From positions 124,001 through 188,000 of the IMG/VR virus record IMGVR_UViG_3300008114_000012: a DNA stretch of 64,000 bases; one strand, given 5' to 3'. The position numbers and the translations under genes are program-made. Of the stretch, positions 11,004-63,417 are shown in pieces. The notes under the pieces were generated by a model, which was given only the letters and a program-made list of their open reading frames with translations, did not search any database and was not told the origin of the DNA. This DNA is from a virus. Every line of letters starts with the position of its first letter. Within the stretch, counting starts at the first letter, position 1.

Positions 11004-12029
11004 TTATTTTATACAGGATAAACTTTTAGCTGTATTAACGACCTCCTTCAAATATCCTAAACTGCTAATATATTGAATTGTTGGTTCATCTGAAACTAAA
11101 TTAATTGCTTTTTGGGTTACTGTAGTTGTATCAGTTTTGATATTTGGAATATAGTTTTTTATAACTTGGTTTTTATCTACTTTTAGTACCAAATCAGGTT
11201 TATCTTTAGGAAATGGTTGATATACACCATTAATACTATCACACGGAGCCATAAATTCAGGATTGTTTGTTTTACAATATTTTTTCTTAAATCTAGATGA
11301 ACCTAAATTATATGACATAATTGCGGCATCCATAACACTATTATTTGATGAAGATGGATTATCTATGAGTTGACCTTGGTTTATTATTTTAGACGGACTT
11401 TTACTATCATAATATGGGGTTAATTCTTCGTATAAATTTATAAGGTGTTTAGTAACTGCTAAAAGTGAACCTGATAATGACATCAATTCCTCCAAATCTA
11501 CTCCATATTTTTTTGCGATATCTGGAGTCATTTGAGCAATTCCCATACTCGGAACCCAATTATCTTTATTAAAAACTTTTTTAGCCCCATATTTCAAAAC
11601 CTCACTAAAACCCGGTATTGTATCACTAAGCTTATTCATCAAGTATTCTGGTGCTGCTTTAATACCGTACATACCCATAACCTTACCAAAATCAGATTCT
11701 CTACCAATTATTCCTATTGCATATTTTACGTAAAGTGGGTCAAAACCTTCAGAAATTACAGATACCGCAGCTGTTGAAATTTCAGGTGTGGTACAAGTAT
11801 ATTTGTTGAGGTTCAAATCGTATGTTTTGACAACGCTTTGACTTTTAATTGGGGTATTTTGGGTGACTGGTTGTTGTTTGGATACTTGTTGCATTCGATT
11901 CATTCCTTGAGCATATTTTTTTTGTTCTTCAGGCTTCAATGTGTTAGTTTTAAATTTGGTTTGCTCTAAAATTATTTTTTTTACAATTTTAAACAAATCA
12001 GATTCAGTGAGTTTGATAACTTTTTTCAT
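11004..12029 (-). CDS. Lytic transglycosylase-like protein with leader peptide
   Basis: 341 residues. The first 23 are a textbook copy of the shared leader (KVIKLTESDLFKIVKKIILEQ). From about residue 75 the SLT-type lysozyme fold is seen: IIGRESDFGK with the probable catalytic glutamate, then SMGIAQMTPDIAKKYG, then AAIMSYNLGSSRF. It should cut the MurNAc-GlcNAc bond in peptidoglycan. A leader plus a wall enzyme would fit a virion-carried injection lysin. Disordered Lys/Gln/Thr-rich linker covers about residues 25-65. Confidence 0.85.
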   Translation of the reverse strand: MKKVIKLTESDLFKIVKKIILEQTKFKTNTLKPEEQKKYAQGMNRMQQVSKQQPVTQNTPIKSQSVVKTYDLNLNKYTCTTPEISTAAVSVISEGFDPLYVKYAIGIIGRESDFGKVMGMYGIKAAPEYLMNKLSDTIPGFSEVLKYGAKKVFNKDNWVPSMGIAQMTPDIAKKYGVDLEELMSLSGSLLAVTKHLINLYEELTPYYDSKSPSKIINQGQLIDNPSSSNNSVMDAAIMSYNLGSSRFKKKYCKTNNPEFMAPCDSINGVYQPFPKDKPDLVLKVDKNQVIKNYIPNIKTDTTTVTQKAINLVSDEPTIQYISSLGYLKEVVNTAKSLSCIK

Positions 12030-12113
12030 TTGACTATAAAAAAATAAATATGTATCTTATTTCTTAATAAATAGATTTGAAATCAAATTAATACAGTCAG
12101 ATTAACAAAATTA

Positions 12114-12121
12114 CTTATATT
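12114..12121 (+). promoter_or_regulatory. Host-type promoter -7 box (TATATTTG)
   Basis: TATATTTG upstream of the ATG at 12179 in an AT-rich gap between divergent genes. It leaves an unusually long A/T-rich leader of about 50 nt for this window. Confidence 0.45.
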
Positions 12122-12178
12122 TGAAAAAAATTTTTTAAGATATAAAAATCTATATTTAATACTACATAACTTTATTCT

Positions 12179-13885
12179 ATGACTGAACTTCTATCAAAAA
12201 GGTTTGAGACCTTCGTGTCGTTGGAGCATCACGACTTCAATGAGTTAACTTTTACCGAAGAACAAGACGACTTAAATATTTTTTCCCTTTCAAATGGGAG
12301 GTTTTGGGAGGGAAGATTATCGTTCTCACTAAAACAAAAACACACGAGCAAGGAGGTATTTGAGGAAAACTTCAAAAATCCTTTGTATAATCTATTTCAT
12401 AGAAGGATGACTGGTGTTGTTGCTGCGGATGATGAGAGGATAACATTAAAGTTTTTTTTGTATTCAAGAAACCGAAGACCTGATGAGAAGTTTGTAAGAA
12501 TTACTACAAATTGTGTTTACATGACCTATAACTTCAAAAAGAATTGTCTTTATACGGGAATTGTAAATGGATATCATAAAAAGAAAAAAGTTAATAAGTC
12601 AGTTAAGATTGTGTCATTTTCTAACGATACGGTAAATGATTTGTTGGGTAAATACATAACATGGTTTCATTTTGTTCATGAAAATTTACCTGAAAAGAAA
12701 ACCACCAAAAATGGTTTTTATGATTTGTTAAGTACGTTTATAGATAACATACCTGGCGTAGTTTATGACAATGAAAAGTATGGTACTAAAACCATCCATA
12801 AGACTATTTTAACCAAAAAGAATATTAAGTTATCCGACAATTGGTCTTCATTTTCTTGTCATTTTCCCCAACCAAAGGCGAAAGACTTCAAGAAGTATGG
12901 TGATAGATATCTCAATGTGATAATGGAGATTAATGGTTTAAAGGGTGATAAGATACGTAGAGTATTACATAAGATTAAAAACTTTAACCCTTTGGTGTAT
13001 CACAAGGCAGTCCGTTTCTTTGGTAAAGATTATCTTTTGGGAAAGTCTGATGACGAACTACAAAATATATTTGAGACAACTTGTATGGGGGATTTTCTTA
13101 ATATGAATTTTGCCTCAATACACTCAAAGAAAGAACGCAATTGTATTTTTGAAATATTCAAATTGGTTATTAACGATGAAATTAATCCCCAAACATTTGC
13201 GGACCATTTCATTTTCTATACTAACTTGAAAAACTATGAAAACATCAAATGGACCTCGACAACGTATGATGAGTTTAGGGAAGAACATTTGAATTGGACG
13301 GAGTTAAATGACTTTTATACCAAAGGAACGTTCGATAGAATATATAACGATAAATTTGAGAGTGAGGTTACCAAACCAATATTTACAGATGGGAAAACTT
13401 TCTATCCTGTAATTCTGAAAAGTTCCTCAGAATATAATGACGAATCATTTATTCAATCTAACTGTGTTAAAGGTTATATCAAACGACCTGACGCTTTGAT
13501 AGTATCATTGAGAAAAGATAGTCCTGATTCTAAAGAAAGAGCGACTATTGAGTTTAGAATTAGTTTTGATACTGTTATAGAACTTAAGAGAGTACAAACC
13601 CTCGGAAGATTTAATAAATCACTAACTTTGGAATGGGATAACATTTTACCTATATTAGATAAAAGAATTAATGATTTGGTATATACATTTGATACACCAA
13701 AGATAAAGTGTAAAATTGGATATATTGAATTCACATCAGAGTCTAAATTTGTTGATTATAATAAGATAAGACTTAATAGACCATTAATGAGATTTTATGA
13801 TTCTTCGGATAATTCATTGGAGTGGGAGGATAAAAGAGTTAATAACATAAATGATATCGCAATACCTTTGCTAGAAGAATTTTAA
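12179..13885 (+). CDS. PcfJ-like protein
   Basis: 568 residues. The C-terminal third resembles the PcfJ-like family of conjugative elements and phages: FYPVILKSSSEYNDESF, a Cys-containing SNCVKGYI, a conserved SLRKDS segment, then ATIEFRISFD and VQTLGRFNK. PcfJ's biochemical function is not established. The N-terminal 350 residues are unrecognised and rich in basic and aromatic residues. The gene starts a block through 15325 with tight spacing (2 bp to the next gene). Assignment is from memory of the motif pattern and is tentative. Confidence 0.65.
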   Translation: MTELLSKRFETFVSLEHHDFNELTFTEEQDDLNIFSLSNGRFWEGRLSFSLKQKHTSKEVFEENFKNPLYNLFHRRMTGVVAADDERITLKFFLYSRNRRPDEKFVRITTNCVYMTYNFKKNCLYTGIVNGYHKKKKVNKSVKIVSFSNDTVNDLLGKYITWFHFVHENLPEKKTTKNGFYDLLSTFIDNIPGVVYDNEKYGTKTIHKTILTKKNIKLSDNWSSFSCHFPQPKAKDFKKYGDRYLNVIMEINGLKGDKIRRVLHKIKNFNPLVYHKAVRFFGKDYLLGKSDDELQNIFETTCMGDFLNMNFASIHSKKERNCIFEIFKLVINDEINPQTFADHFIFYTNLKNYENIKWTSTTYDEFREEHLNWTELNDFYTKGTFDRIYNDKFESEVTKPIFTDGKTFYPVILKSSSEYNDESFIQSNCVKGYIKRPDALIVSLRKDSPDSKERATIEFRISFDTVIELKRVQTLGRFNKSLTLEWDNILPILDKRINDLVYTFDTPKIKCKIGYIEFTSESKFVDYNKIRLNRPLMRFYDSSDNSLEWEDKRVNNINDIAIPLLEEF

Positions 13886-20278: not shown

Positions 20279-21364
20279 ATGTCGAAAACACTTAACGAAT
20301 CAGAGTTACAGGAAAAAATGGTTCAAATCTACAAAGAAGAACAAAAAAAAGTTATTGAAGAAAAATGGCAAAAATTGTCAAATAAAGATAAAAAAATGGT
20401 ATTGGAGATGTTAAAAATCCAATATCCTGAAAAATCAATTTTAATTAGCGAATCAAAGTGGTACAATACTTTGGGGGATATTGTTGGCATATTTGACCCA
20501 ACTGGTGTGGTTGATTTAATTAACGGTATTAGTTATTGGAGACAAGGTGATAAGTTATTTGCCGTTTTGTCATGGATTTCCGTATTACCTTATGTAGGTG
20601 ACTTAATTGCTAAACCAGTTATTGGTTTGTTTAAGATGGGAGGGGCTTCAGCGAAAGCATTCAAAGCCGCATCATTGGCCGGTGATGCCACTAAGATGGC
20701 TCAAATTGCTAAAAAAGGAGGACCGTTAGCAGGTCTTCTTACTAAAGTTAATACTTGGGCACCAAAAGTACTTGAACCTTTGGCAAAAGGAGTTAAAAAG
20801 ATACCAGGTGTAGGACCGGGTTTTGTTAAAGGTGTTGAGGATTATATCAAATTATTTAAAGATGCTAATAATACTATGTCAGCAGGTGCAAAAACTGCGA
20901 CAAGGCTTACTGCAAAATCAAGTAAGTTGGCGAAACAAGGTTCAAAATTAAGTGCTGCTGAGGCAAAACAATTAAAAGCCGCATTGGATTCGGCGACGAC
21001 ATATAGAGGGTTTAGAGACTTCAAAGGGGGACAAAGTTGGTTAAAATACATGAAGTCAGACGCTACTTTATCATCTAAAATATCTGCCGGAGTTCCTAGA
21101 TTGTGGGGAAATCCAGCAACAAGAGCTTTGATGAGAAAAACTAATTTTGTTGGTCCTGATGAACTTGAAAATAAAATTGAAGATTTGGATTCTAAAATGG
21201 CCGAATACAATAATACGCCAGAGGCTCAACAAAATTGGAATGAAGATATCCAAACTACAGAACAACCGTCTCCCGAATATTCTCAGGAAGTTTCGGCGCC
21301 TGAACCACCAAAAGAAACAAATAATAAAAGTGGCGATGATATCTTTGGATTTTTATTTACATGA
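20279..21364 (+). CDS. Membrane-interacting protein with leader-like N-terminus
   Basis: 361 residues. It starts with a leader variant (SKTLNESELQEKMVQIYKEE). Residues about 60-115 are hydrophobic (GDIVGIFDPTGVVDLINGI, then LFAVLSWISVLPYVGDLI), likely membrane-inserting. An Ala/Gly/Lys-rich region follows and a Pro/Gln-rich acidic tail ends the protein. A similar hydrophobic motif (VPYIGPYLVAAKG) occurs in 27964-28503. The layout resembles pore-forming or injected virion proteins; that role is inference. ATGA overlap with the next gene. Confidence 0.75.
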   Translation: MSKTLNESELQEKMVQIYKEEQKKVIEEKWQKLSNKDKKMVLEMLKIQYPEKSILISESKWYNTLGDIVGIFDPTGVVDLINGISYWRQGDKLFAVLSWISVLPYVGDLIAKPVIGLFKMGGASAKAFKAASLAGDATKMAQIAKKGGPLAGLLTKVNTWAPKVLEPLAKGVKKIPGVGPGFVKGVEDYIKLFKDANNTMSAGAKTATRLTAKSSKLAKQGSKLSAAEAKQLKAALDSATTYRGFRDFKGGQSWLKYMKSDATLSSKISAGVPRLWGNPATRALMRKTNFVGPDELENKIEDLDSKMAEYNNTPEAQQNWNEDIQTTEQPSPEYSQEVSAPEPPKETNNKSGDDIFGFLFT

Positions 21365-22767
21365 AAAAATTAATTAACGAAAGTGGTATTAGGGATATTA
21401 ATAAATTAGCCCAAAGGTACCCAAAAGCAGAAATATACTTTCACCAAGATTTGGATGGTGTAACAACGGCAATCGCCATGAAGAACTATTTGGAACAACA
21501 TGGTATTAAGGTTGTTGATGCTCACGTAATACAATATGGTGATAAAGAATTCTCCGTTAAGAAGAACGACGCTCAAGGAGATACGATGCCTGTATTGGTA
21601 GATTTCGCACACGGAAAACCAATGTTCGTTATTCATACAGACCACCACGATAGACAAGCGGGCGCCGAAGATACGAAATCAACATCGTTTAGACAGTCAA
21701 GGTCAAACGTTGAAACCATATCACAAATAGTTTCACCAAAAGAAGTATTCCCCAGTGAAGACATACTTCTGATTTCAACTGTGGATTCGGCAAATTTCGC
21801 ATCTCAAAATATCTCAATTGATGATGTGATTAATTATGTTTTTCGTTTAGATAAAGATAATTCCTTAAAACGGAATAAAATGATGTTAGGACTTGTTACT
21901 AACAAATTGTTATTAGCATTCAAAAACAAACCAGGGTTTCTTGAGGAATTGGTTATGGTGTGTAAACCATCTATAATGAGTATTCTTCAAAACATTAAAA
22001 GAATAATGGTTGAGAAGGGATATGCTAAAATACCTGAATTGGAGAAGAACAAAGAGATGTATTTTCAACAGATGAAAGACTCACCAAATGTTAAAATCGA
22101 CGGAAACATAATTGTACAATATGGTGGTGATAGTATGGTGAAACCAGGTTCTTATGATAGATACACACCTTTTAAAAATAATCCTGATAAGGATTTCTTA
22201 GTTATTGCTTGGCCAATGGGATTAGTACAAGCATCATGTAATCCTTTTAAGAAAGAAAGGGCGTTAAAAGGAATCGATTTAGGAAAAATCAAAGATGAGG
22301 TATTATCTAAATGGGAAAGCCAACTCAAGGAGAGAGAAATACCAATCTCAACAATTAAATGGATTTCTGAAAATACGAAAGGATTTGGTCCTGAGTCGGT
22401 AGGTTTTACATTTAAGGATTTTGTGGCATTGTATGGTAAGAATTATAAGACCAAAGAAAACGGTAGAGAAGAATTGGTCCACATTGGTGAGATGATGGAA
22501 GTACCTTTTAGTGAATTACCTGAAGAACATAGAGAGATGTTAGATAAGGTAACTGTAAACGCTTGGGATTTAATTGACGCGAGTTCAGGGGGTCATAAAT
22601 GTATAACTAACATATCAGGTCTTAATTATTTGGGTAGAAGTAATAGACCACCAAAAGGTAAGTACAAGTATGACCCTGATAAGGATGATAGTCCATATGT
22701 TAAATTTACAAAAATGATACAGAATGAGTTTGTTAGACTGTTAAAAGAAAAGATAACAAATTCTTAA
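21361..22767 (+). CDS. DHH-family phosphoesterase
   Basis: 468 residues. Motif I is HQDLDGVTTAI (28-38) and the DHH motif is HTDHHDR (92-98), the metal-binding core of the RecJ/nanoRNase/oligoribonuclease superfamily; a DHHA1-like C-terminus may be present (SSGGHKCITN). It probably hydrolyses short nucleic acids or nucleotides with Mn2+. The N-terminal MKKLINESGIRDINKLAQR is leader-like. The substrate cannot be told. It overlaps the upstream gene (ATGA) and converges with DUF192 by 4 bp. Confidence 0.85.
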   Translation: MKKLINESGIRDINKLAQRYPKAEIYFHQDLDGVTTAIAMKNYLEQHGIKVVDAHVIQYGDKEFSVKKNDAQGDTMPVLVDFAHGKPMFVIHTDHHDRQAGAEDTKSTSFRQSRSNVETISQIVSPKEVFPSEDILLISTVDSANFASQNISIDDVINYVFRLDKDNSLKRNKMMLGLVTNKLLLAFKNKPGFLEELVMVCKPSIMSILQNIKRIMVEKGYAKIPELEKNKEMYFQQMKDSPNVKIDGNIIVQYGGDSMVKPGSYDRYTPFKNNPDKDFLVIAWPMGLVQASCNPFKKERALKGIDLGKIKDEVLSKWESQLKEREIPISTIKWISENTKGFGPESVGFTFKDFVALYGKNYKTKENGREELVHIGEMMEVPFSELPEEHREMLDKVTVNAWDLIDASSGGHKCITNISGLNYLGRSNRPPKGKYKYDPDKDDSPYVKFTKMIQNEFVRLLKEKITNS

Positions 22768-24791: not shown

Positions 24792-25097
24792 ATGAAAAAT
24801 ATCCTGATTACCCAAGAACAATTAAATAAGTTAGTTAATATCGTGAAGGAAAATCACGAAGGTGAAGATTCTATAACTAAAAAACAATTATTCACAATTG
24901 CCACGTTGGCTTATAAAATGTGGGAATCGATGGATGATAATGAACAGTTGGAAGACTGGGAAGAAAGTAAGATTGCTCAATGTGAGCAGAGTATCATTGC
25001 TGTGGTGAAGAATTATATGTATGATGAATTTGTTGATGACAATCAAACAACAGGGATGGATAAACTTAATTATGATGAGTTGGTGATAGGTAAATGA
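24792..25097 (+). CDS. Leader-bearing hypothetical protein, 101 aa
   Basis: The N-terminus (KNILITQEQLNKLVNIVKE) is the ITE/ITQ class of the shared leader. The rest is acidic and helical with no recognised domain. It is driven by a phage-type promoter, in line with other tagged genes. Confidence 0.75.
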   Translation: MKNILITQEQLNKLVNIVKENHEGEDSITKKQLFTIATLAYKMWESMDDNEQLEDWEESKIAQCEQSIIAVVKNYMYDEFVDDNQTTGMDKLNYDELVIGK

Positions 25098-32084: not shown

Positions 32085-32114
32085 ATTTGTATATATTTGT
32101 AAAAAAAATCAAAA

Positions 32115-48457: not shown

Positions 48458-48837
48458 ACGATACGTCCGCTTCTTACATCAAAGACCTTATAGTCGGGGA
48501 GCATAGATTCAAAAGCATCAGAGATAAAGTATTTACCATTGGTCATCCAAACAGGGTGAGGTAACATCTCCTCAAAAAACCCATCATACTTATGGCTGTA
48601 GTATAAATCACCCGTTTTACCATCACTAAAAATAGAAAACATCATCATAGGATTACCGGCTGAATCGTATAGGACAATTCTATTACTATCCTCACTATAT
48701 GATTCAATCTCATCAACAATATAAGGAACGATGATATGTTTAAACTTATTGTATAGGTCCTCATACTCAAAATCCATCCAATGACGTTCAAGTTCGGATA
48801 TAAGATTAAGTTGTGATTCGGTGATAAGGTATTTCAT
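48454..48837 (-). CDS. ITESxL paralogue, 127 aa
   Basis: Leader KYLITESQLNLISELERHW, then an acidic alpha/beta body. First of a minus-strand series to 50992. Its ATG is preceded by TATTTATCTTAT, a three-base gap. Ends in a TTAG overlap with the polyprotein gene. Confidence 0.75.
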   Translation of the reverse strand: MKYLITESQLNLISELERHWMDFEYEDLYNKFKHIIVPYIVDEIESYSEDSNRIVLYDSAGNPMMMFSIFSDGKTGDLYYSHKYDGFFEEMLPHPVWMTNGKYFISDAFESMLPDYKVFDVRSGRIV

Positions 48838-48849
48838 ATAAGATAAATA

Positions 48850-49185
48850 TTACATTGATAGTTCGGCGTCACCTATCAGACCACCGTATACTTTGACATC
48901 CGAAGGTTCAATCTTACCGGAGTTAGAGTTTTCCTCAACAAAATGGGTGAGAATTAATTCGGCCTCATCCTTATCAATAGAAAAGAATTCACATACACTG
49001 TTTATAAAATCTTCGGATATTATTAAAGTACCTGACCTTCTTCTATACCTCATAACGGCGTGTGTATCGTCTAAAGAATAAACAAAACTTATATAACTTG
49101 TCCAATAAACCGCCTCAAGATTTAGTGAATTAATATAATTAAAAATAATACTGTTTAATTTAGATTCGGTGATTAGGAATTTCAT
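48850..49185 (-). CDS. ITESxL paralogue, 111 aa
   Basis: Leader KFLITESKLNSIIFNYINS, then strands around a Tyr/Arg-rich stretch and a C-terminal ELILTHFVEENSNSG helix. It shares the plan of 49201, 49972, 50286 and 50669: leader, a strand pair, FFSxD helix (FFSIDKDEAELI) and a final strand. Confidence 0.75.
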   Translation of the reverse strand: MKFLITESKLNSIIFNYINSLNLEAVYWTSYISFVYSLDDTHAVMRYRRRSGTLIISEDFINSVCEFFSIDKDEAELILTHFVEENSNSGKIEPSDVKVYGGLIGDAELSM

Positions 49186-49200
49186 ATAAGATAAATATAA

Positions 49201-49512
49201 TTAATACCCAACAATCGGACTGGCAACTTCCACATTAATAGATTTTATTCCGAGTTTATTTTCAATCCATTTATTAATTACATTAATGGAGTCCCCATAA
49301 TCTAAAGAAAAGAATTTGCTAACTTCGTCGACCAAGTCGTAGTGTATTGTACACCAGCGGTCTTTCGGATGATATCTAACTTGAGCATATTCATCATCTT
49401 CAGAGTTGACATAGTATAATCTATTCCCCATTTTAATTACAACGAAGTCCTGATTGTCAAGATACTTAAAAACTATACTATCAAATTTAGATTCGGTGAT
49501 AAGATATTTCAT
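49201..49512 (-). CDS. ITESxL paralogue, 103 aa
   Basis: Leader KYLITESKFDSIVFKYLDNQDF, then DDEYAQVRY, a VSKFFSLDYGDSINVINKWI helix and a final SINVEVASP strand. The NQDF ending of the leader is shared with 49972, 50286 and 50669. Preceded by TATTTATCTTAT. Confidence 0.75.
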   Translation of the reverse strand: MKYLITESKFDSIVFKYLDNQDFVVIKMGNRLYYVNSEDDEYAQVRYHPKDRWCTIHYDLVDEVSKFFSLDYGDSINVINKWIENKLGIKSINVEVASPIVGY

Positions 49513-49544
49513 ATAAGATAAATATATGTAATATTTATTATCAT

Positions 49545-49970
49545 ATGAGTATTAAAGAATCCATAAGAAGAATATTAAGGGAAGAAACTTTACTTAAAAC
49601 CAATATAAAAGACATGATTTCCAAACATGGATTTTATATAACGTCCAAAATGTTAGGTGGAGTTGATATTATGAATAGTATTCTTAATATAAAAGGTTCA
49701 CAGGAAGAAATGATTTTCATTGTTAAAGCCATAATGGAACATGATGTTGAAGTTTTGGGTAATGTATGTAACTATCAAATAGTTCCGACCATGTACTCAT
49801 TTAAACTATATGTAGAAATACCAAAATATTATCCCAACCATTCCGATGATTATTACCCAAACAAACAAAAAACATTTGAGGCGAGAGATTATATATCTGA
49901 CTTAATAAAAAAGTTTGGAAATGAAAAGGTGAGAGGATATAATATATACGTTCAGGTAGGAAATTGTTAA
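49545..49970 (+). CDS. Leader-bearing hypothetical protein, 141 aa
   Basis: Starts SIKESIRRILREETLLKTNI, the KES…REE leader class. It is a single plus-strand gene inside the minus-strand paralogue series. The body resembles a module of the polyprotein at 46601-48457 (GFYITSKMLGGVD versus GLIKTSDMVGLSI), so it may be a free-standing module. Confidence 0.75.
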   Translation: MSIKESIRRILREETLLKTNIKDMISKHGFYITSKMLGGVDIMNSILNIKGSQEEMIFIVKAIMEHDVEVLGNVCNYQIVPTMYSFKLYVEIPKYYPNHSDDYYPNKQKTFEARDYISDLIKKFGNEKVRGYNIYVQVGNC

Positions 49971-49971
49971 A

Positions 49972-50289
49972 TTAGTCAGCTCCGTAATCAGAGAAGATAT
50001 AGTCAAAATCAAAATCAATTTTGGTTTTAATCCATTCACCAATAATATTCAAAGCGGTCTCCAAGTCCAAACTAAAGAATGATGCGACCTCAACAACTAA
50101 ATCTGAACTTACAAAACATTCTTTATTAACACGATTTGTGTTGATTGATATATATCCACCACTTTCCCAACTCTCCTTAGAGTCCCAAAAGACATAACCA
50201 GAGTGATACTTCATTTTATAAAAGTCCTGGTTATTTAAGTAGTCAAAGACAAGATTAGTAAGTTTAGATTCGGTGATAAGGAATTTCAT
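49972..50289 (-). CDS. ITESxL paralogue, 105 aa
   Basis: Leader KFLITESKLTNLVFDYLNNQDF, then the same plan as its neighbours (VASFFSLDLETALNIIGEWI helix). It overlaps 50286-50651 by 4 bp. Confidence 0.75.
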   Translation of the reverse strand: MKFLITESKLTNLVFDYLNNQDFYKMKYHSGYVFWDSKESWESGGYISINTNRVNKECFVSSDLVVEVASFFSLDLETALNIIGEWIKTKIDFDFDYIFSDYGAD

Positions 50290-50651
50290 TCGGTTTTAAC
50301 AATTAATCTGTGAGAAGACCCACTGTTGATAGTGTTTTCTATTTTACCAACCTTAATACCCAAAGTATCACTAACCCATACTTTTATTATCTCTAAACAA
50401 TCCAAATCATCAATAGAGAAGAAATCAGATAATTCCTTAATTAAATCATAATTCACATATACCCAATTCCTAACAAAACCAAAAGAGTTTATGTGATAAA
50501 CACTAATCTGAGCGTAAAGGTCGGACTCATTGTTTAAGAAGTATATGTAGTTGTCAAATTTCTTCTTGTTGTCATATACTATAAAATCCTGATTATCCAA
50601 ATACATAGACACTGTATTATACAATTTAGATTCTGTGATTAAGTATTTCAT
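50286..50651 (-). CDS. ITESxL paralogue, 121 aa
   Basis: Leader KYLITESKLYNTVSMYLDNQDF, a slightly longer body with ESDLYAQISVYH and LSDFFSIDDLDCLEIIKVWV, and a Ser-rich tail. Coupled to 49972 by a 4 bp overlap. Confidence 0.75.
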   Translation of the reverse strand: MKYLITESKLYNTVSMYLDNQDFIVYDNKKKFDNYIYFLNNESDLYAQISVYHINSFGFVRNWVYVNYDLIKELSDFFSIDDLDCLEIIKVWVSDTLGIKVGKIENTINSGSSHRLIVKTE

Positions 50652-50668
50652 ATGATAATAAATATGAT

Positions 50669-50992
50669 TTAGTTAGGTATTACCAACGCATAACCTGAAC
50701 TCGGAGCAACACCGATGCTTTCGACCTCCATTTTTATGATATTCTCAACCCATTTAACAATAACTTTATCAAAGTCAGAATCTTGTAAAGAAAAGAACAT
50801 AGAAATTTCATTATATAAATCGTAAGATACGTAACACCGACCATCTTTGTCAAATCTTATTTGAGCATATTCATCTGATTCAGAATTGACAAAGTATATG
50901 CTTTCTCTATTTTTAAACCGAATAAAGTCCTGATTGTCCAAATACTGAAGGATAATACTATCCAATTTAGATTCGGTGATTAGGTATTTCAT
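50669..50992 (-). CDS. ITESxL paralogue, 107 aa
   Basis: Leader KYLITESKLDSIILQYLDNQDF, then ESDEYAQIRFDKDGRCYVSY and ISMFFSLQDSDFDKVIVKWV. Very close to 49201-49512 in sequence, indicating recent duplication. It is the most upstream gene of the series and borders the non-coding region. Confidence 0.75.
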   Translation of the reverse strand: MKYLITESKLDSIILQYLDNQDFIRFKNRESIYFVNSESDEYAQIRFDKDGRCYVSYDLYNEISMFFSLQDSDFDKVIVKWVENIIKMEVESIGVAPSSGYALVIPN

Positions 50993-53312: not shown

Positions 53313-53690
53313 ATGAAAAAAACAGTTAGACTTACAGAATCAGATTTAGTTAATTTGATTAAGAGAATTATAAAAGAAGAAGAGGGAACGGACTTATCTA
53401 ATGTTAGAGCCGAGTTTATAGATTTAATAAAGAGTATGAATTGGGAGTTTAATCCAAATCATAACATGTCAGGGTTTGCGTTTGTCCCTAAAAAAGGGGA
53501 CATTGGATATAGTGGGTTTAAGCAAGACAGTTTCAATATGTATATTGGCAAACCATTAATCTTTAATGGTAGTGATGATAATGAATATTGTTATTTAGAT
53601 AAGAATAATAATTTTGTTCTCAAGAGATTTGGTAAAAAGTCAACCTCCCCTTTATCATCAGGGATTGGTGGTATTAAGAATTTATTGTGA
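53313..53690 (+). CDS. Leader-bearing protein, 125 aa
   Basis: Leader KKTVRLTESDLVNLIKRIIK then EEEG. The body (EFIDLIKSMNWEFNPNHNMS…) is mixed alpha/beta. Preceded by TATTTATTATAAAA. First of a run of tagged short genes to 58036; ends before a terminator. Confidence 0.75.
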   Translation: MKKTVRLTESDLVNLIKRIIKEEEGTDLSNVRAEFIDLIKSMNWEFNPNHNMSGFAFVPKKGDIGYSGFKQDSFNMYIGKPLIFNGSDDNEYCYLDKNNNFVLKRFGKKSTSPLSSGIGGIKNLL

Positions 53691-54059: not shown

Positions 54060-54434
54060 ATGAAAAAAGTTATAAGATTAACCGAATCGGATTTAGTTCG
54101 TTTAGTAAAACAAGTTATAAATGAGCAATCTATTCCTGAACCCGAAAAGATTTCCGCTGACCATGCTAAATTTGAGGAATATGTAAAGACAAAATGGGGT
54201 TGGAAGGAAGACCCTTATGCTTCAATTGACTTTGAAGGAGGTGATAACAAGTTTACAATATGTGATGGTCCGTGTGGTTCACTTATTCCTGGTACAGATG
54301 TTAATAGTGTTACATGGGATGGAAAAACTAAAACGGTATATGGAACCGTATCATTTGGAGTTGACCCCAAACCAATTTCATGGAGTTATAAATTTAACCA
54401 AATGAAAACATGGTTTGATTCTTCTTTCGGATAA
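54060..54434 (+). CDS. Leader-bearing protein, 124 aa
   Basis: Starts at the ATG at 54060 with KKVIRLTESDLVRLVKQVIN then EQ, a canonical leader with INEQ end. The body is beta-rich (DNKFTICDGPCGSLIPG, KTVYGTVSFGVDP), with a Cys pair. A terminator follows at 54461. Confidence 0.78.
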   Translation: MKKVIRLTESDLVRLVKQVINEQSIPEPEKISADHAKFEEYVKTKWGWKEDPYASIDFEGGDNKFTICDGPCGSLIPGTDVNSVTWDGKTKTVYGTVSFGVDPKPISWSYKFNQMKTWFDSSFG

Positions 54435-54537: not shown

Positions 54538-54846
54538 ATGAGATATATTATAACGGAAGAACAAAATAATATTATTCGTGTCCTACGAAGAATTGACCAA
54601 GACCATGATTTGATTCAGGATATTGTTGTTGAGGGAATGGAAATGTATTTGTGTGATTATGACCCCTTTAATTATTTTTATGAATTTTTATGTCGGAACT
54701 CAGCATTTACTTATCTTTTAAATTATTTTGATAACCCACGTCAAGAAGGGTTCATGAAAATGGAAGATTATATGACTGATTATATTAAGGAAAACTTTAA
54801 GGAAATGATTGTTACCTATTGGGAAGATAATAAGGAATATTGTTAA
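54538..54846 (+). CDS. Leader-bearing hypothetical protein, 102 aa
   Basis: Leader RYIITEEQNNIIRVLRRIDQ; acidic, aromatic-rich helical body. Preceded by a partial C-rich cassette and TATTTATTCTTAT, three bases before the ATG. Confidence 0.72.
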   Translation: MRYIITEEQNNIIRVLRRIDQDHDLIQDIVVEGMEMYLCDYDPFNYFYEFLCRNSAFTYLLNYFDNPRQEGFMKMEDYMTDYIKENFKEMIVTYWEDNKEYC

Positions 54847-55309: not shown

Positions 55310-55849
55310 ATGAAATACATTCTTACGGAGTCACAGTATGCTGGGCTGATGAAACTAATTAAAAAACAAGAAGAGGATTTGAGTTTTTTGAAAAGTAGTG
55401 TGGTCTCTACAATCGAACATGACGTAACAGATTTTTTAAACTCCAAGTTTCAAGGTAGATTTGGACACTATGGTTATACGCAATATCCCGTATTTTTTAT
55501 TTATCCTGATAAATTAACCTCTGAACTTACAAAATATAATAGGAGAGAACCGGCTTTGGTTATTGCTTATAATATAAAAAAATCTACAGGCAAAGTTGAA
55601 ATTAATATTTTTTGGAATACTAAAGTGAGTTTTAATTATAAAACAGAAGATGGTAAATGGAAAAGAAATAAGTATCCCCAAAATACCATTAAGTGGGATT
55701 ATATGAATAACCCTGACGGAGAAGAGGAATTCTTATCTAAATTGGAAAAGACCATTAACGGAAGAATAAGTGAAAGGGCTCAAAACAAAATTATTGATGA
55801 TTTTGAAAAACTTTATAGAGAAGAATATCAAACTAGTATATTAAATTAA
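55310..55849 (+). CDS. Leader-bearing hypothetical protein, 179 aa
   Basis: Leader KYILTESQYAGLMKLIKKQ. The body has strands (YPVFFIYPDKL, EINIFWNTKVSF) and a helical C-terminus. No family recognised. Confidence 0.75.
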   Translation: MKYILTESQYAGLMKLIKKQEEDLSFLKSSVVSTIEHDVTDFLNSKFQGRFGHYGYTQYPVFFIYPDKLTSELTKYNRREPALVIAYNIKKSTGKVEINIFWNTKVSFNYKTEDGKWKRNKYPQNTIKWDYMNNPDGEEEFLSKLEKTINGRISERAQNKIIDDFEKLYREEYQTSILN

Positions 55850-55919: not shown

Positions 55920-56291
55920 ATGAAAAAGATAATTAGACTTACCGAATCCGAACTAATCAAAGTTGTAAAACGTATTATTAACGAACAGCATTTTGATGAA
56001 TTTATGACATCATCTGAAACATCTTCAGTCTCTAATGTCGTACAAAATCTTGAAAGAGAAATGGGTGATTACAAAAATAAAATGGATGGATTTTTATCCG
56101 ATTTGAAATCATCAGGTGATATTGATTGGAATAGATTCTTGAAGCAAGTTAGAAATCAAACAAGTGAAATATTTCATAAGTATGATGATGAATCTTTATC
56201 TAGGGAGGACTCATTAAACCTCTTCAATACATTCTCCCAACTCCAATCAAACCTTCTTAATCATTATAAAGGACAATACAGAAATTCTTAA
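55920..56291 (+). CDS. Leader-bearing protein, 123 aa
   Basis: Leader KKIIRLTESELIKVVKRIIN then EQ. The body is a helical, Ser/Asn-rich protein, possibly a coiled coil. INEQ end as in 54060 and 57143. Confidence 0.75.
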   Translation: MKKIIRLTESELIKVVKRIINEQHFDEFMTSSETSSVSNVVQNLEREMGDYKNKMDGFLSDLKSSGDIDWNRFLKQVRNQTSEIFHKYDDESLSREDSLNLFNTFSQLQSNLLNHYKGQYRNS

Positions 56292-56304: not shown

Positions 56305-56583
56305 ATGAAAAAGATAATTAGACTTACAGAATCAGATTTAACAAGAATTGTTAAACGTGCTATTAACGAATCGGACCGAGCTTATGGTCATGAAGAAATA
56401 GGTAAACTATATTCTAAATTGGGAGACGATGAGGATGTTGAATTGAGTGACGAGTCTGGCGAATTGTCAGGTGGGATTGTTAAGAAGATTGACTATGTAA
56501 AGAATATGCTGAGAAAAGCCATAAAGAATGAGGATTGGGAAATGGTTAATAGAGCCATGAGTTATCTTAACATGAAATTATAA
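56305..56583 (+). CDS. Leader-bearing protein, 92 aa
   Basis: Leader KKIIRLTESDLTRIVKRAIN then ES. Short acidic body and a helical C-terminus (LRKAIKNEDWEMVNRAMSYL). The leader DNA is nearly identical to that of 55920, suggesting duplication of this segment. Confidence 0.75.
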   Translation: MKKIIRLTESDLTRIVKRAINESDRAYGHEEIGKLYSKLGDDEDVELSDESGELSGGIVKKIDYVKNMLRKAIKNEDWEMVNRAMSYLNMKL

Positions 56584-56623: not shown

Positions 56624-56878
56624 ATGGGAAAAAAAATTCGATTGACCGAATCTGAGTTAACCAAATTAATAAAGAAAATGATTTCGGAAGACTTGGAAAT
56701 GATGGACGTTTCCTCAGATTCTGATTATTATAAAGCAAGAAAACGAGAAGTATCCATACCCAAAGACGATTTGGCGTTACTAGGTCATATGGCCACAAGG
56801 TATTGTGAAAGAAAAGAAAATCTACCAGATTGTCAAAGAGTTCAGGATTTGTATTCCCGTTATCAATTATTTATGTAA
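56624..56878 (+). CDS. Leader-bearing protein, 84 aa
   Basis: Leader GKKIRLTESELTKLIKKMIS then ED. Short body with two Cys and a helical end (MATRYCERKENLPDCQRV). Confidence 0.72.
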   Translation: MGKKIRLTESELTKLIKKMISEDLEMMDVSSDSDYYKARKREVSIPKDDLALLGHMATRYCERKENLPDCQRVQDLYSRYQLFM

Positions 56879-56889
56879 AATTAAAGAAA

Positions 56890-57138
56890 ATGAAAAAACC
56901 TATTAGATTAACCGAATCCGACCTTAATAGAATTGTTAAAAAAACAATTATGGAAATGGGAGGTATGACCAATTCAATTGAGATGTATGACTTCAATAAA
57001 AGAAAAATGATAAATGGATTACATCAATTGAAATCCTCCATAGATAGTGGAGATAATGAAACTGCATCACATATTGTACAAGTTTTACTTTTAACATTAA
57101 ACGAACTTGATTCTTATGTTGATGAAATGAAAAGATAA
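56890..57138 (+). CDS. Leader-bearing protein, 82 aa
   Basis: Starts at the ATG at 56890 with KKPIRLTESDLNRIVKKTI then MEM. Helical body resembling that of 56305 in its C-terminal pattern (HQLKSSIDSGDNETASHI versus a similar KAIKNEDWEMVNRAM helix). Confidence 0.72.
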   Translation: MKKPIRLTESDLNRIVKKTIMEMGGMTNSIEMYDFNKRKMINGLHQLKSSIDSGDNETASHIVQVLLLTLNELDSYVDEMKR

Positions 57139-57142: not shown

Positions 57143-58036
57143 ATGAAAAATTTATATTTTTTAGACAACTCAGAAAGAGAAAGAATTCTCAATCTACATG
57201 AATCGGCAACCAAGAATCAATATTTGATTAACGAACAATCGGCAGATAAAGATATTGCCGGTAGAATATATAAAGCATCGTATGGACCTGGTACAGGTAG
57301 TGATTTTTTAACCGCAATACAAGCAATATCTAGTTTACAACAATTGAAAAATGTTGATGCTCTTTTGAAGAGTGGTTATGGTCAACTTGGTCTACAAGGT
57401 CAAATTAACGATGAATTTAACCCACAAGAAGCAACCGATAGAGCAAGCTTAAAGGCGTTTCAGAGTCACTTGGCTAAACTTGGTGCTACGATGACATTCG
57501 ACCAAAATAGAAACGAAAGTGTTGTTATTAATTACCAATCAACCGTTCAAGCTCAACCTGAGACACAAAAAACAGAAGAGCAACAAGTGGCTGATTGGTC
57601 ACAAAAATTCCCATGTGTTGTAAACTATCCCGGAGCCCAAAAAATTGCCAATCCCCGTACCGATACTAATGTTTCAGGCACTGTTGCTTATAAAATAGGT
57701 GAATTTACTTATTTTATTGATGGTAACCAATATGGTAAAGGAAGTTATAGTACCTACACATGTGATGATGCATTTTTCAAAAATTCGTCAAGAGTACAAG
57801 CCAATCCAGAACAAAAGGGAGGTAAGACAAGTGGTGCTCCACAACCTTACAAACATGCTCAACATGTAACAAATGTTCAGAACAAATTAAAGGAGATTGA
57901 CCCGGCCTTCGCTGGTGGAGTTACAAAAACAGGTCAAATGGACCAAGCTACTATAAACAAGCTCATGGAAATACTTATGTCAAAAAAGATGCCTGAGACT
58001 AAAGTTGAGACACCGGCTCCTGAAGCTGAAGGTTAA
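57143..58036 (+). CDS. Peptidoglycan-binding-like protein with leader
   Basis: 297 residues. N-terminus LDNSERERILNLHESATKNQ then YLINEQS, a leader of the RILNLHE class ending in INEQ. The C-terminus (VQNKLKEIDPAFAGGVTKTG, then MDQATINKLMEI) resembles a PG_binding_1 domain. A middle region has DWSQKFPCVVNYPGA and a Cys pair. It probably binds the cell wall or is a virion component. Confidence 0.75.
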   Translation: MKNLYFLDNSERERILNLHESATKNQYLINEQSADKDIAGRIYKASYGPGTGSDFLTAIQAISSLQQLKNVDALLKSGYGQLGLQGQINDEFNPQEATDRASLKAFQSHLAKLGATMTFDQNRNESVVINYQSTVQAQPETQKTEEQQVADWSQKFPCVVNYPGAQKIANPRTDTNVSGTVAYKIGEFTYFIDGNQYGKGSYSTYTCDDAFFKNSSRVQANPEQKGGKTSGAPQPYKHAQHVTNVQNKLKEIDPAFAGGVTKTGQMDQATINKLMEILMSKKMPETKVETPAPEAEG

Positions 58037-58050: not shown

Positions 58051-59262
58051 ATGAAATTTATAATTACCGAAGAGGAAAAAAAATATATTAAGGGACTCTA
58101 TGGGTTGATAACTGAACAGACCAATGTTTCTAATGTTGTCATACCCGACAATATTTTGGAATATTCATATGACGAATGGGTAAAATGGTATAATGAAAAT
58201 ATAAAACCATTCAACTCTACAACTCTAAGGAAAATAGTAAAAAATCGTATACCCGATAACCCTGATTTATTATTATCAGATGGTATAAGAAGCATCACTA
58301 AAACTCCGGATGATAGAAGTAAATTCAATGGATTATTGAAAAAGTTTAACACTCCTCTATCTTCAAGTGCGACTATTTCAGAAAGAGATTCATTAATTTC
58401 AGCCTTCGAGCTAGCTCAAAATCTTGTTAATGAAGTTTATGAAAAATGGAATGATAGTTTGAAAAAAAATATGGTATTAACCATAACAGAAACAACAGAA
58501 ACCGTTCCTGGCGAATCTATCGGTGGTACGGTAGAATTCCCAATTGAATGGAATCCTGATACCAATATTCAGTTATATGTTAATAATGAGTGGGAGTTGT
58601 CTCCAGAAGCCATTGAATCTTATAATCAAAATATTCTAAGTAAAGTAAATATTGCGAAAGAACAATTCCCAAATGCGATAATATCATTGAAGTCATTGGA
58701 TATTCAAACTTCTGCATCAAGATATAGAAATACCGGGCGGGCATCCGATTTAACTTTTCAAGAGCTATCAGGATATAGAAACAATTCTGCCAAAGATTAT
58801 ATAATTAATTCATTAAAAGAAAATGGTGTCACCGAGACGGATACCGTAACCCCAACTCAACAATATTTAGGAAGTAATGGTGATGGTACCACAGGACCTA
58901 ATCCTCCTGAGCCAAATGCTTATGTTAATGGAGGTAATGTTAAAATGAATACAACATCTACCGAACCAAGAAACCAATTTGGAGAACCTCACGCAACACC
59001 TGAAGAATATAACCAATACAAATATTTAAAAGTGAAAATTGTTTTAGCCGCCACGATAGAGACAGAGGAAACCACACAGTCACCTGTTGAAGTTTTCAAT
59101 TACTCATTGGATATTGACGGTAAAATTATACCACCACCAACTCCGGTTAAAAGACCAAAACCAAAAGGTAAGTCATCCTCATTTAATTTCAGGGATAAAT
59201 TAGCAGGATTTTTGAGTATAAATCCTAAATTATGTGCCGCTTATCAATCAGGAGGAAACTAA
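58051..59262 (+). CDS. Leader-bearing large protein, 403 aa
   Basis: Leader KFIITEEEKKYIKGLYGLIT then EQT. The body includes an OmpA-like or outer-surface-like stretch (SKVNIAKEQFPNAIISLKSL, then SASRYRNTGRASDLTF) reminiscent of a substrate-binding fold, a Gly/Pro-rich linker (near 285-300) and a basic end. I cannot name the family. It converges on 59248 with 15 bp overlap. Confidence 0.75.
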   Translation: MKFIITEEEKKYIKGLYGLITEQTNVSNVVIPDNILEYSYDEWVKWYNENIKPFNSTTLRKIVKNRIPDNPDLLLSDGIRSITKTPDDRSKFNGLLKKFNTPLSSSATISERDSLISAFELAQNLVNEVYEKWNDSLKKNMVLTITETTETVPGESIGGTVEFPIEWNPDTNIQLYVNNEWELSPEAIESYNQNILSKVNIAKEQFPNAIISLKSLDIQTSASRYRNTGRASDLTFQELSGYRNNSAKDYIINSLKENGVTETDTVTPTQQYLGSNGDGTTGPNPPEPNAYVNGGNVKMNTTSTEPRNQFGEPHATPEEYNQYKYLKVKIVLAATIETEETTQSPVEVFNYSLDIDGKIIPPPTPVKRPKPKGKSSSFNFRDKLAGFLSINPKLCAAYQSGGN

Positions 59263-61215: not shown

Positions 61216-61545
61216 ATGAAGATTGTATTAACAGAATCTCAAATGGAAAAGTTGATTGATGAGCAATTGACTAAACCTAAAGAGACCGAGGATTTTTCAG
61301 AGTATATCAGAAAATTTAACACGATTAAACTTAATAATAAGACATTTACTCCTGACGATTTTTTATCGAAGTTAAATAATTCACCAATCCAACTTAATTT
61401 ATTCCATATTCAAACAGATGGGTATAATATCGGAACGGGAGCTTTATCTGCTAAAGGTAAAATTGGTAATCTCAATTTGATATTGAGTGTGAAACCGGTA
61501 GGAGATTTCAAAACAGGTTTGGTTACAATAACAAAAACGATATAA
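61216..61545 (+). CDS. Leader-bearing protein, 109 aa
   Basis: Leader KIVLTESQMEKLIDEQLTKP with an IDEQ signature. Strand-rich body (LFHIQTDGYNIGTGAL, NLNLILSVKPVG). Preceded by TATATTTATATAC. Confidence 0.75.
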   Translation: MKIVLTESQMEKLIDEQLTKPKETEDFSEYIRKFNTIKLNNKTFTPDDFLSKLNNSPIQLNLFHIQTDGYNIGTGALSAKGKIGNLNLILSVKPVGDFKTGLVTITKTI

Positions 61546-61573: not shown

Positions 61574-61987
61574 ATGAAACATTTATTGAATGACTTATCC
61601 GAAGAGGAAAAAAATAGAATTCGTGAGCAACACACTGGCGGTAAGAAACTTGTAATCGAAAATTTCGATAAACTTGTTAATACCAAACTTGGTGATGTTA
61701 AACCATTGTTGCGGGAACAAACTGAGGAAGCAAATATTACAAAATCTATTCAGTGTTTTTTAAATAAAAGAATGAATGCGGGTTTAGTAGTTGATGGTTT
61801 AGCCGGTGATAATACAAGTAAAGCCGTTGAAAAATACCAAAGTAACATTGGAGTTTTTCCTACTGATGGGATATTGGGCCCCGATACAAAAGATAAAATG
61901 CCACAATCTGACGTTAAAATATTAGAGGAATGTATAAATGAACATTCGGATATTATTGATAAAGTATTAAGGTGGTTTGGATTTTAA
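61574..61987 (+). CDS. Peptidoglycan-binding protein with leader
   Basis: 137 residues. N-terminus LNDLSEEEKNRIREQHTGG, a relative of the EEExxRILNLHE leader, with PLLREQ near residue 50. Residues about 60-115 form a PG_binding_1 domain (VDGLAGDNTSKAVEKYQSNI, then DGILGPDTKDKM). Likely wall-binding and possibly virion-borne. Confidence 0.82.
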   Translation: MKHLLNDLSEEEKNRIREQHTGGKKLVIENFDKLVNTKLGDVKPLLREQTEEANITKSIQCFLNKRMNAGLVVDGLAGDNTSKAVEKYQSNIGVFPTDGILGPDTKDKMPQSDVKILEECINEHSDIIDKVLRWFGF

Positions 61988-62295: not shown

Positions 62296-62967
62296 ATGAA
62301 CATAGTACATAGTCCAGGAGGACCGGTGGTTAAAGAACTTGATGATTTTTTGAGGAGTGATAGATGTCCTGTCTCCGAATACCCAATACAAGTAAGACAT
62401 TCTCATGGGGATGAAAAACACATAACTTTTATGATTGAACAATTAACCGAAGATATTGTGAAAGACCCTATGGTATTAGGCCCACTACATAGGGATGCGG
62501 TCCATGAAGTTTGGACATTTAGCGAATACAACATTCATCTAATGAATCAAGCGGGGATTACTAAAGCGAGATTGATTAAATTAGAACCTACCGATGAGTA
62601 TAGGGCGGAAATTCTTTCATACAATCCTGACAACACTTATGACTATGATGTATCTTTCTTTGGTTGGATGAGTGAAAGAAGATACAATATGATGTACCAA
62701 TTACAAAGTAGAGGATTGAGGGTTATGTATGGACAGGATGGTTGGGGTGAGCATAGAGACAGAATTATTGCTAAAAGCAAAGTTATGGTTAACGTACATT
62801 ATGCGGAAGATTTTAAATGTTTTGAACAAATCAGATGTTTTCCTTGGATGTGTACCGGTAAAATAGTTGTGAGTGAAACTAGTTATGATACGGACGAAAG
62901 AGTAATATTCGCCGATTATGACAAATTAGCCGATACTGTTGCCGAAGTAATTAGAACAAGATTTTAA
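62296..62967 (+). CDS. Glycosyltransferase-like protein (GT-B C-terminal-type)
   Basis: 223 residues from the ATG at 62296. The C-terminal half reads GWGEHRDRIIAKSKVMVNVH, then FEQIRCFPWMCTGKIVVSE and a final SYDTDERVIFADYDKLADTV. This is the nucleotide-sugar half of CgeB/YkvP-like GT-B transferases, with the expected loop and acidic residue. Only this half plus a shorter N-terminus is present, so it is a compact form. May glycosylate phage DNA, virions or host surface. Confidence 0.7.
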   Translation: MNIVHSPGGPVVKELDDFLRSDRCPVSEYPIQVRHSHGDEKHITFMIEQLTEDIVKDPMVLGPLHRDAVHEVWTFSEYNIHLMNQAGITKARLIKLEPTDEYRAEILSYNPDNTYDYDVSFFGWMSERRYNMMYQLQSRGLRVMYGQDGWGEHRDRIIAKSKVMVNVHYAEDFKCFEQIRCFPWMCTGKIVVSETSYDTDERVIFADYDKLADTVAEVIRTRF

Positions 62968-62975
62968 AAAAAACA

Positions 62976-62991
62976 ATATTTATTATAAAAT
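62976..62991 (+). promoter_or_regulatory. Phage-type promoter (ATATTTATTATAAAA)
   Basis: Just before the GTG start at 62998. Confidence 0.55.
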
Positions 62992-62997
62992 AATATT

Positions 62998-63417
62998 GTG
63001 ATTAACTTAAATGAAGAAGTAAGAAAGTTTGGATACCTTTCATTGTATAAAAGAGGTGTGGTTATTTCCGAACAAACAACAGGCACAACTAGTACTAGCG
63101 GTGTAACTTCAGGTTTAACTACAGTAGAAACTACCTTACTCGGTTTTCTAAATGACGTTGTTCAAAAAAGTTTAACCCAAGACCCATCAAATGTTTCTTT
63201 CAGTGGATTAACCGATGATGTCGAGAAAAGAAAACAAATGACTGATTTGAGTAATCAATTAATACAAAAAAGAGATACTGGTTCGGTAGATGTAAATCAA
63301 AGTAATTTTCAATTATATCTCAATACGATGAACAGTATGTTTCCTAATACGGAAGACAAACTCCCATTTTATCAATTGGGGTTAGGTGTTAAAAAGATGG
63401 AACAGAAAACCATTTAG
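62998..63417 (+). CDS. Leader-like hypothetical protein, 139 aa
   Basis: Probable GTG start at 62998. Starts INLNEEVRKFGYLSLYKRGV then VISEQ, a leader form ending in ISEQ. A Thr/Ser/Gly-rich linker (TTGTTSTSGVTSGL) and a helical body follow. It converges on 63389 with 29 bp overlap. Confidence 0.68.
   Translation: MINLNEEVRKFGYLSLYKRGVVISEQTTGTTSTSGVTSGLTTVETTLLGFLNDVVQKSLTQDPSNVSFSGLTDDVEKRKQMTDLSNQLIQKRDTGSVDVNQSNFQLYLNTMNSMFPNTEDKLPFYQLGLGVKKMEQKTI

Follow-up and report, generated by a model that had tools for sequence, protein, structure and literature searches.

The closest described counterpart of the leaders reported here is found in phage T4, for which the gp21 cleavage motif L/I-x-E and the function of the CTS have been described (PMC9026906). 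Ip1-3 have only the leader in common, and at least ten Ip proteins have been reported across T-even relatives (PMC12373910). The sites in the T4 record are MELITE↓L in Alt, NELLRE↓S in gp24, FLTE↓A in gp23, and FIAE↓A in IPII and IPIII (arrows mark cleavage sites, which are predictions for the phage studied here). Genomes of bS21-encoding freshwater Bacteroidetes phages reach 331 kb (PMC9723584), and no leaders or capsid cargo are described in the sections of that paper that bear on them.

The window, i.e., the whole stretch of 64,000 nucleotides that was analyzed (positions 124,001 to 188,000 of IMG/VR record IMGVR_UViG_3300008114_000012), comes from a giant uncultured freshwater phage of the T4 superfamily, a bS21-type jumbo phage, the host of which is likely a freshwater Bacteroidetes. 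Its complete genome comprises 322 kb and encodes 337 proteins. The leaders described below (classes A to D) very likely constitute a T4-like system of capsid-targeting propeptides, enlarged to approximately 35-40 cargoes in one jumbo phage; cleavage and packaging are inferred. A preliminary description had proposed such a system for about thirty unrelated proteins of the window, with leaders ending in a hydrophobic-x-E-Q signature. Every open reading frame it listed is present with the N-terminus it gave, and the sharing of leaders by many proteins was confirmed, as the general motif M-x(2-6)-[IL]-[TSN]-E at the start codon occurs in 42 of the 337 proteins against 6.2 ± 2.4 in shuffles (maximum 14 in 300 shuffles). 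Twenty-eight of the 42 fall inside the window. Approximately six of the 42 matches are expected from chance alone. When counted at any place within residues 3-32, the short motif [IL]xE shows only slight enrichment (121 vs 98.8 expected, z 3.3); it is therefore weak alone, and the leader context is required. The list was incomplete, since it lacked the genes starting at 20279, 21361, and 62998, probably those at 6884, 25823, and 29718 as well, and an internal class A copy in 1061-2473.

The class A leaders of the window, and the protein with the internal copy, are as follows.

11964-12029, minus strand: leader MKKVIKLTESDLFKIVKKIILE↓, gene 11004-12029 (341 aa)
45736-45801, minus strand: leader MKKVVRLTESDLIKLVKRIIKE↓, gene 45496-45801
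53313-53378, plus strand: leader MKKTVRLTESDLVNLIKRIIKE↓, gene 53313-53690
54060-54125, plus strand: leader MKKVIRLTESDLVRLVKQVINE↓, gene 54060-54434
55920-55985, plus strand: leader MKKIIRLTESELIKVVKRIINE↓, gene 55920-56291
56305-56370, plus strand: leader MKKIIRLTESDLTRIVKRAINE↓, gene 56305-56583
56624-56689, plus strand: leader MGKKIRLTESELTKLIKKMISE↓, gene 56624-56878
56890-56955, plus strand: leader MKKPIRLTESDLNRIVKKTIME↓, gene 56890-57138
1061-2473, plus strand: protein of 470 aa, starting with MRQKLNETYINSLVEKIINE↓ and then T

Across IMG/VR, the class A leader is present on 134 proteins, and 131 class A bodies fall into 106 unrelated clusters, so that the claim of unrelated bodies held for this class. 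A class A HMM gave 13 N-terminal matches above 20 bits in the source phage and its relatives and none above 20 bits on composition-matched decoys, while a tblastn search of GenBank phages with 25 residues of a class A leader found no match, even with E allowed up to 10. The cultured relative immuto, a Flavobacterium phage, encodes a prohead protease, has the MCP site IVSE↓A, and has two proteins that share MKKQILSEQF(K/R)RMQ(F/K)LAGIITE↓S; its leader-type starts are few (6 vs 2.8 expected), a low count that weighs against the propeptide reading. The sequences show both the site and the modularity of the leader. Each of the 134 class A leaders has a second [ILV]xE (P3 being I, L, or V), and conservation amounts to 3.9 bits at the E and to 1.3 and 0.8 bits directly after it. 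The Q of the claimed signature, which directly follows the conserved E in 42 of 130 class A leaders (~32%), is a preference only. Eleven leaders with different spacing still keep the [ILV]xE site, and the predicted site stays at the border of conservation despite the change in leader length. Furthermore, leader swaps on one cargo reach up to the predicted cut, and the leader of one cargo was seen in four different forms or shortened to seven residues. The body encoded by 11004-12029 had no Pfam match and no PDB sequence match; a lytic-transglycosylase type is a possibility guessed by eye. Leader copies also occur inside proteins: the product of 1061-2473, possibly a core protein or a polyprotein, carries ITMTEGELINFIEKIIKE↓E at approximately residues 250-270, and the same internal element is present in a relative in L150.

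The conserved element could instead be a DNA- or RNA-level signal for translation or expression, perhaps linked to the phage bS21, with the peptide as a by-product. In favor of this explanation, the leader lies at the extreme 5' end of every gene, and TATTTAT sits 11-13 or 20-24 bases 5' of many start codons. Oriented TATTTAT was found upstream of 29 of 42 tagged genes, 13 of 25 head and tail genes, and 1 of 17 replication-type genes. That tagged genes carry it no less often than head and tail genes counts in favor of the propeptide reading, and its frequency upstream of untagged genes in related loci (33%) counts against that reading. The T4 late promoter TATAAATA showed no enrichment upstream of tagged genes. 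Against a DNA- or RNA-level role, synonymous codons vary freely in the leaders (Leu, Thr, Ser, and Arg each use at least four codons at conserved positions), the [ILV]xE end survives length changes, and the copies within proteins do not fit such a signal, which renders this explanation very unlikely.

The class B proteins of the window are as follows.

24792-25097, plus strand: class B-like MKNILITQEQLNKLVNIVKE↓, with Q at the first site (LITQ) and VKE later
27964-28503, plus strand: class B protein MKFIINERQYKIINE↓Q
28506-29057, plus strand: class B protein MKFIITE↓EQ
43466-43867, plus strand: class B protein MKFLITE↓QQ
45003-45401, minus strand: class B-like MRYFITQGQ, with Q replacing E at the predicted site
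48454-50992, minus strand: six class B genes (48454, 48850, 49201, 49972, 50286, and 50669), each starting MK(Y/F)LITE↓S
54538-54846, plus strand: class B protein MRYIITE↓EQ
55310-55849, plus strand: class B protein MKYILTE↓SQ
58051-59262, plus strand: class B protein MKFIITEEEKKYIKGLYGLITE↓Q
61216-61545, plus strand: class B protein MKIVLTESQMEKLIDE↓Q

Class B membership as first proposed held in part, the exceptions being 24792 (LITQ) and 45003 (FITQ), which have Q for E. The array 48454-50992 is largely one paralogous family; the claim of unrelated bodies therefore failed for most of it, and the independent cargoes of the window number fewer than thirty. An AlphaFold model of 50669-50992 has a mean pLDDT of 91, with the first helix beginning at residue 7, and in this big class B family helix 7-19 is predicted to be a confident part of the folded domain, so that only MKYLITE would be removable. 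No PDB match was found for the family model. An unbiased sample of class B starts has E in 32 of 45 (~80% when unrelated look-alikes are excluded), and some family members carry D, N, K, or Q in its place. Because class B tolerates loss of the E, a need for cleavage there is not shown.

Class C, class D, and further tagged proteins are as follows.

44191-45006, plus strand: class C protein MNLKETIKKILRE↓E; SLVTE↓Q and GEITE↓K are additional sites
46601-48457, plus strand: polyprotein-like class C gene encoding 618 aa, with leader MNLKESIKRILRE↓E
49545-49970, plus strand: class C protein MSIKESIRRILRE↓E
9455-10525, minus strand: class D protein MLKKLLISEEEQSRILNLHKEA...IRLDE↓G, PG_binding_1 domain
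57143-58036, plus strand: class D protein MKNLYFLDNSERERILNLHESATKNQYLINE↓Q
61574-61987, plus strand: class D protein MKHLLNDLSEEEKNRIRE↓Q, PG_binding_1 domain
20279-21364, plus strand: tagged protein MSKTLNE↓SELQEKMVQIYKE↓E
21361-22767, plus strand: DHH-family protein, minimal leader MKKLINE↓SGIRDI
25823-26278, plus strand: DUF5856 protein, leader MKDESKLKQALLEEVKKRGLLE↓QE
62998-63417, plus strand: tagged protein MINLNEEVRKFGYLSLYKRGVVISE↓QTTG

The C-terminal KCWPGYTQKGMK...PNCVK module of 44191-45006 recurs on other tagged proteins. In 46601-48457, four ES(V/I)L(R/E/K)E sites lie between modules after the leader, and modules 1 and 4 are homologous; the product is likely a polyprotein, its cleavage being inferred. 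The plus-strand gene 49545 sits among the minus-strand genes of the class B array. Class D is the loosest of the four groups. An ortholog of the DHH-family protein bears a complete class A leader, with ITE↓SGIRDI at its end. The label "Dps-like" was not supported, as the protein (25823-26278) matches DUF5856. The cargoes include superoxide dismutase, wall-active proteins, and the probable polyprotein, and a Pfam search of 150 cargo representatives matched only ten families, with one member each.

These data bear on a second alternative, already recognized in the preliminary description, that the leader is merely the conserved first helix of a fold common to paralogs, without processing. The folded helix 7-19 and the replacement of E in some members speak for it, and it partly holds for the big class B family. 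It fails for class A, in view of the 106 unrelated body clusters, and for class C, in which residues 1-11 of the structure model have pLDDT below 50 and the leader is thus predicted to be unfolded. The end of conservation at the E and the occurrence of one cargo with four different leaders or a seven-residue one also argue against it. As a general explanation, we regard it as very improbable.

The preliminary description had suggested looking for a prohead protease gene. PF03420 had no match in the window's own record, a fragment of 200 kb that lacks head genes. The search of the complete genome was positive: it encodes a gp21-type S77 prohead protease at G001:117086-117811 (E 1.5e-25), labeled "head maturation protease" in a second search (2.8e-43). 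The protein shows 32% identity to T4 gp21 and retains the aligned His85 and Ser140. The gp23 capsid protein gene adjoins it, and this capsid protein has LINE↓A at the position where T4 gp23 has its own site; (F/H)LINE↓A is present in the capsid protein of three relatives. The protease and the capsid site are evident in the sequence, and cleavage of the capsid protein is inferred. S77 was found in 16 of 26 leader-bearing records and in six of six of those larger than 290 kb. A third alternative is that the leader is an address to the tail, the membrane, or a phage-made compartment, with the E end cut by another protease or left uncut. The head destination is indeed inferred, and wall-active cargoes might act in lysis or on the tail. 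In contrast, the site matches the reported gp21-family specificity (PMC9026906) and the capsid protein's own propeptide site, and the form of the leader tracks the protease clade (3 vs 14 records). Such an address is therefore very unlikely.

The capsid-targeting propeptide reading is thus supported, with cleavage and the presence of cargo in the virion inferred only; no virion proteomics was found for the source phage. In the proposed mechanism, the tagged proteins would be made late in infection, and the N-terminal leader, which consists of a short hydrophobic stretch plus, in class A, an amphipathic helix, would bind the scaffold core of the assembling prohead. The S77 (gp21-type) protease may then cut inside the prohead after the E of [L/I/V]-x-E, freeing the mature proteins inside the head during expansion and DNA packaging. 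The mature cargo could be ejected with the genome into the next host bacterium, where it may serve as early effectors or DNA-protecting proteins. Core binding, ejection, and effector roles are likewise inferences. The leader as a copy of a scaffold segment, STMKEEIKELVKESLNEQ, was considered and rejected: the match looked good by eye but fell short of significance (hhalign P 0.025 and 2% probability), with approximately 2.8 equal scores expected for the leader helix in a shuffled proteome. A bolder reading, which we are inclined to doubt slightly more than to accept, is that of a general, transferable head-export system in widespread uncultured T4-superfamily jumbo phages, in which any gene that acquires a leader then encodes an effector delivered by the virion, the leaders evolve together with the protease, and some polyprotein cargoes are cut in the head by the prohead protease into separate effectors.

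If the propeptide reading is true, the cargo that a phage delivers to the cell can be read from sequence, and the leader marks approximately 40 candidate effectors in the source genome and hundreds across uncultured phages, nearly all without a known family. The T4 counterparts are anti-restriction inhibitors and an ADP-ribosyltransferase (PMC9026906, PMC12373910); the tagged set may therefore be rich in candidate proteins for anti-defence and takeover directed against Bacteroidetes. As tags, the leaders might also be used to load proteins into large phage heads.

As in T4 IPI-III and Alt, the source phage combines short N-terminal leaders on unrelated proteins with an L/I-x-E site, a gp21-type protease, and gp23, and Alt MELITE↓L resembles class B in form. 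T4 has four cargoes, whereas the source genome has approximately 40, most of which are unknown; it also has several types of leader and a candidate polyprotein in which sites lie internally. Past the h-x-E end, the leaders of classes A-D show no alignment with T4 MKTYQEFIAE (by eye; the sequences are too short to settle homology), and we call the two, by analogy, functionally alike and not homologous. The bS21 gene, which we take to be the 62-aa ORF at G001:116317-116505 (identified by eye), lies on the reverse strand among the terminase, portal, protease, and capsid genes, as in the bS21 freshwater Bacteroidetes phages (PMC9723584). In the jumbo phages phiKZ (gp175) and SPN3US (gp245), a diverged gp21-like protease similarly removes N-terminal propeptides after x-x-E, and many head proteins are cleaved and some ejected. 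Unlike in the source phage, the substrates number at least 19 in phiKZ and nine in SPN3US, and the SPN3US propeptides are mostly long (111-254 residues), with no single shared short leader. The polyvalent proteins and virion-packaged ARTs of myoviruses (PMC9503650) are also predicted head-packaged effectors; their packaging was deduced from domain fusions and gene neighbourhood, whereas for the source phage it is inferred from a leader that is short and transferable and carries a protease site.

The ORFs and N-termini on which the preliminary description had based a shared leader in four classes (A, LTESDLxxIVKRxI; B, LITE/LTES; C, KES...ILREE; D, EEExxRILNLHE) were present as it had listed them. 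The parent IMG/VR record of the window comprises 200,114 bases, and G001 (IMGVR_UViG_3300031951_000001, 322,372 bases) was used as the full genome of the window phage because the tail sheaths are 100% identical and gene order and proteins are common to both records throughout. The start motif M-x(2-6)-[IL]-[TSN]-E was found in 42 of the 337 G001 proteins, 28 of them within the window, against 6.2 ± 2.4 (maximum 14) in shuffles preserving composition and Met positions. The leader HMM search proposed in the preliminary description, run for class A, gave 13 N-terminal matches above 20 bits and none among decoys. The leader pattern is real. The following loci were also observed:

Window 35524-35596: tRNA-Glu (ttc), the only tRNA gene in the window
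Window 37280-41088, minus strand: two adjoining DNA-methyltransferase-like ORFs and a helicase/nuclease-like ORF, all untagged, by eye resembling a restriction-modification-type cassette

A DNA-pattern scan of IMG/VR yielded at least 134 distinct class A proteins, of which 131 bodies fell into 106 clusters. Among 150 cluster representatives, the consensus leader is MKKIIxLTESDLxxxVKRVIxE, and no position beyond it is conserved. The information content per column is 3.9 bits for the terminal E, against 1.4 for the residue before it and 1.3, 0.8 and 0.6 for the three that follow. All 134 leaders end in [ILV]xE, 123 with standard spacing and 11 with other spacing, mostly due to a longer helix. 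This terminal site was not directly selected for, because the scan pattern ended upstream of it, although an HMM threshold was nonetheless applied. The class B pattern MK(Y/F)xITE(S/N/E)(Q/K) occurs on 207 proteins, the bodies of which form 59 clusters. In one big paralogous class B family, helix 7-19 is part of the domain, and the propeptide is therefore limited to MKYLITE at most; E is wholly missing in some class B members. The leader is a module, and leaders are swapped on one and the same cargo. The window DHH protein begins MKKLINE/SGIRDI (slash, predicted cut), and its orthologs begin MKRIIKE/TGIRNI, MKRVITE/TGLRDI or MKILLE/SGLRDI, or, in one case, carry a full class A leader ending MITE/SGIRDI. 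Likewise, the YMFFSNLEQ-starting cargo carries a class A leader or any of three others, the YGSVEET-containing cargo class A or B, and the YSPAGK cargo class C or B. Leader codons differ synonymously, and thus the protein, not the DNA, is under conservation.

Pfam recognized only ten families, with one member each, among the 150 cargo representatives. Tagged cargoes in this genome are as follows:

Fe/Mn superoxide dismutase, leader MKNIEKKIDTLTKSILKE/E
PG_binding_1 proteins, DHH, DUF5856, LRR and a GH19-like enzyme
Window 46601-48457: leader MNLKESIKRILRE/E, then four ES(V/I)L(R/E/K)E sites between modules

In relatives, PHROGs further identified endolysins and a nucleoside deoxyribosyltransferase. 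In the structure model of the YSPAGK cargo, residues 1-11 are unfolded, and the best match of the body is Tpt1/KptA of the ART superfamily (probability 0.98, TM 0.45, E 0.06), a model-based prediction that is a mere suggestion. The 46601-48457 product, modules 1 and 4 of which are homologous (~1e-9), is the sole protein of its kind in the ORF set and, judged from sequence alone, is probably a polyprotein. Outside the window, in the product of G001:C1:212077-213618 (window record 31012-32553), a superoxide dismutase is joined to a second domain that looks nuclease-like by eye, and an internal start-like segment, STVMKKLITE/G, lies between the two. Several otherwise different tagged proteins (window 44191-45006; records L178, L198 and L150) share the C-terminal module CW(P/K)GYxQKGMKxxxGKRYPNCVK, preceded by GEITE or AELTE.

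The prohead protease gene for which the preliminary description had proposed a search was found in G001 and not in the window's own 200,114-base record, where the search was negative because the record lacks head genes. The G001 enzyme, of family S77 and annotated by PHROGs as head maturation protease, is 32% identical to T4 gp21 and retains the aligned His85 and Ser140, which we take to be catalytic. It adjoins a portal, a gp23-type capsid protein and a 62-aa opposite-strand ORF consistent with bS21; the freshwater Bacteroidetes phages of PMC9723584 show the same arrangement. In three relatives, the capsid protein has HLINE/A or FLINE/A near residue 60, the counterpart of FLTE/A at 65 in T4 gp23. 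S77 is encoded in 16 of 26 leader-bearing records, including all six above 290 kb, and most of those without it are smaller fragments. The longer-helix class A leaders are those of three records whose diverged S77 proteases group in a single clade (100/100); this match is a single split and therefore one event, not many. L278, L281 and L284 (412 kb and others) make up a phage group of their own, in which the S77 protease and the scaffold are diverged and the leader helix is longer.

Correctly oriented TATTTAT lies within 60 bases upstream of 29/42 tagged, 13/25 head/tail, 1/17 replication-type and 60/272 other G001 genes (hand-assembled groups; tagged versus rest, p about 1e-9). The contrast is smaller in other phages (class A 60%, class B 43%, others 33%). 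Oriented copies occur throughout G001, for example upstream of window 48454-50992, mostly 11-13 or 20-24 bases 5' of the start codon. This distribution would fit late expression but supports nothing beyond that, and the motif may be a late promoter or a translation signal.

The best explanation of the pattern, and a likely one, is a T4-like capsid-targeting propeptide system in enlarged form, with cleavage, packaging and injection inferred rather than shown by experiment. T4 gp21 cleaves after L/I-x-E, the ten N-terminal residues of IPIII are enough to bring it into the head, and with Asp at the cut, processing is blocked while targeting persists (PMC9026906); by analogy, targeting without processing may account for class B members without E. 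In form, class B resembles T4 Alt (MELITE/L) and class C gp24 (MAKINELLRE/S), and IPII and IPIII begin MKTYQEFIAE/A, all with cut positions placed by motif. G001:C1:127606-128337 encodes a protein that begins with the leader MLSEIIKKVLRE/A and also has a leader-like sequence, NESLEKLVKKIIREIVQD, at its C-terminus, which recalls the reported C-terminal processing of Alt. Ip1-3, which have only the leader in common, act as inhibitors of distinct type IV restriction systems (PMC12373910), and protease substrates number nine in SPN3US and at least 19 in phiKZ (PMC10052503). No paper describing the present leaders was found in the literature searched, most subscription journals lying outside the search. 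New relative to these systems are the scale, the types of leader, and the large set of unknown cargoes and its spread in uncultured phages.
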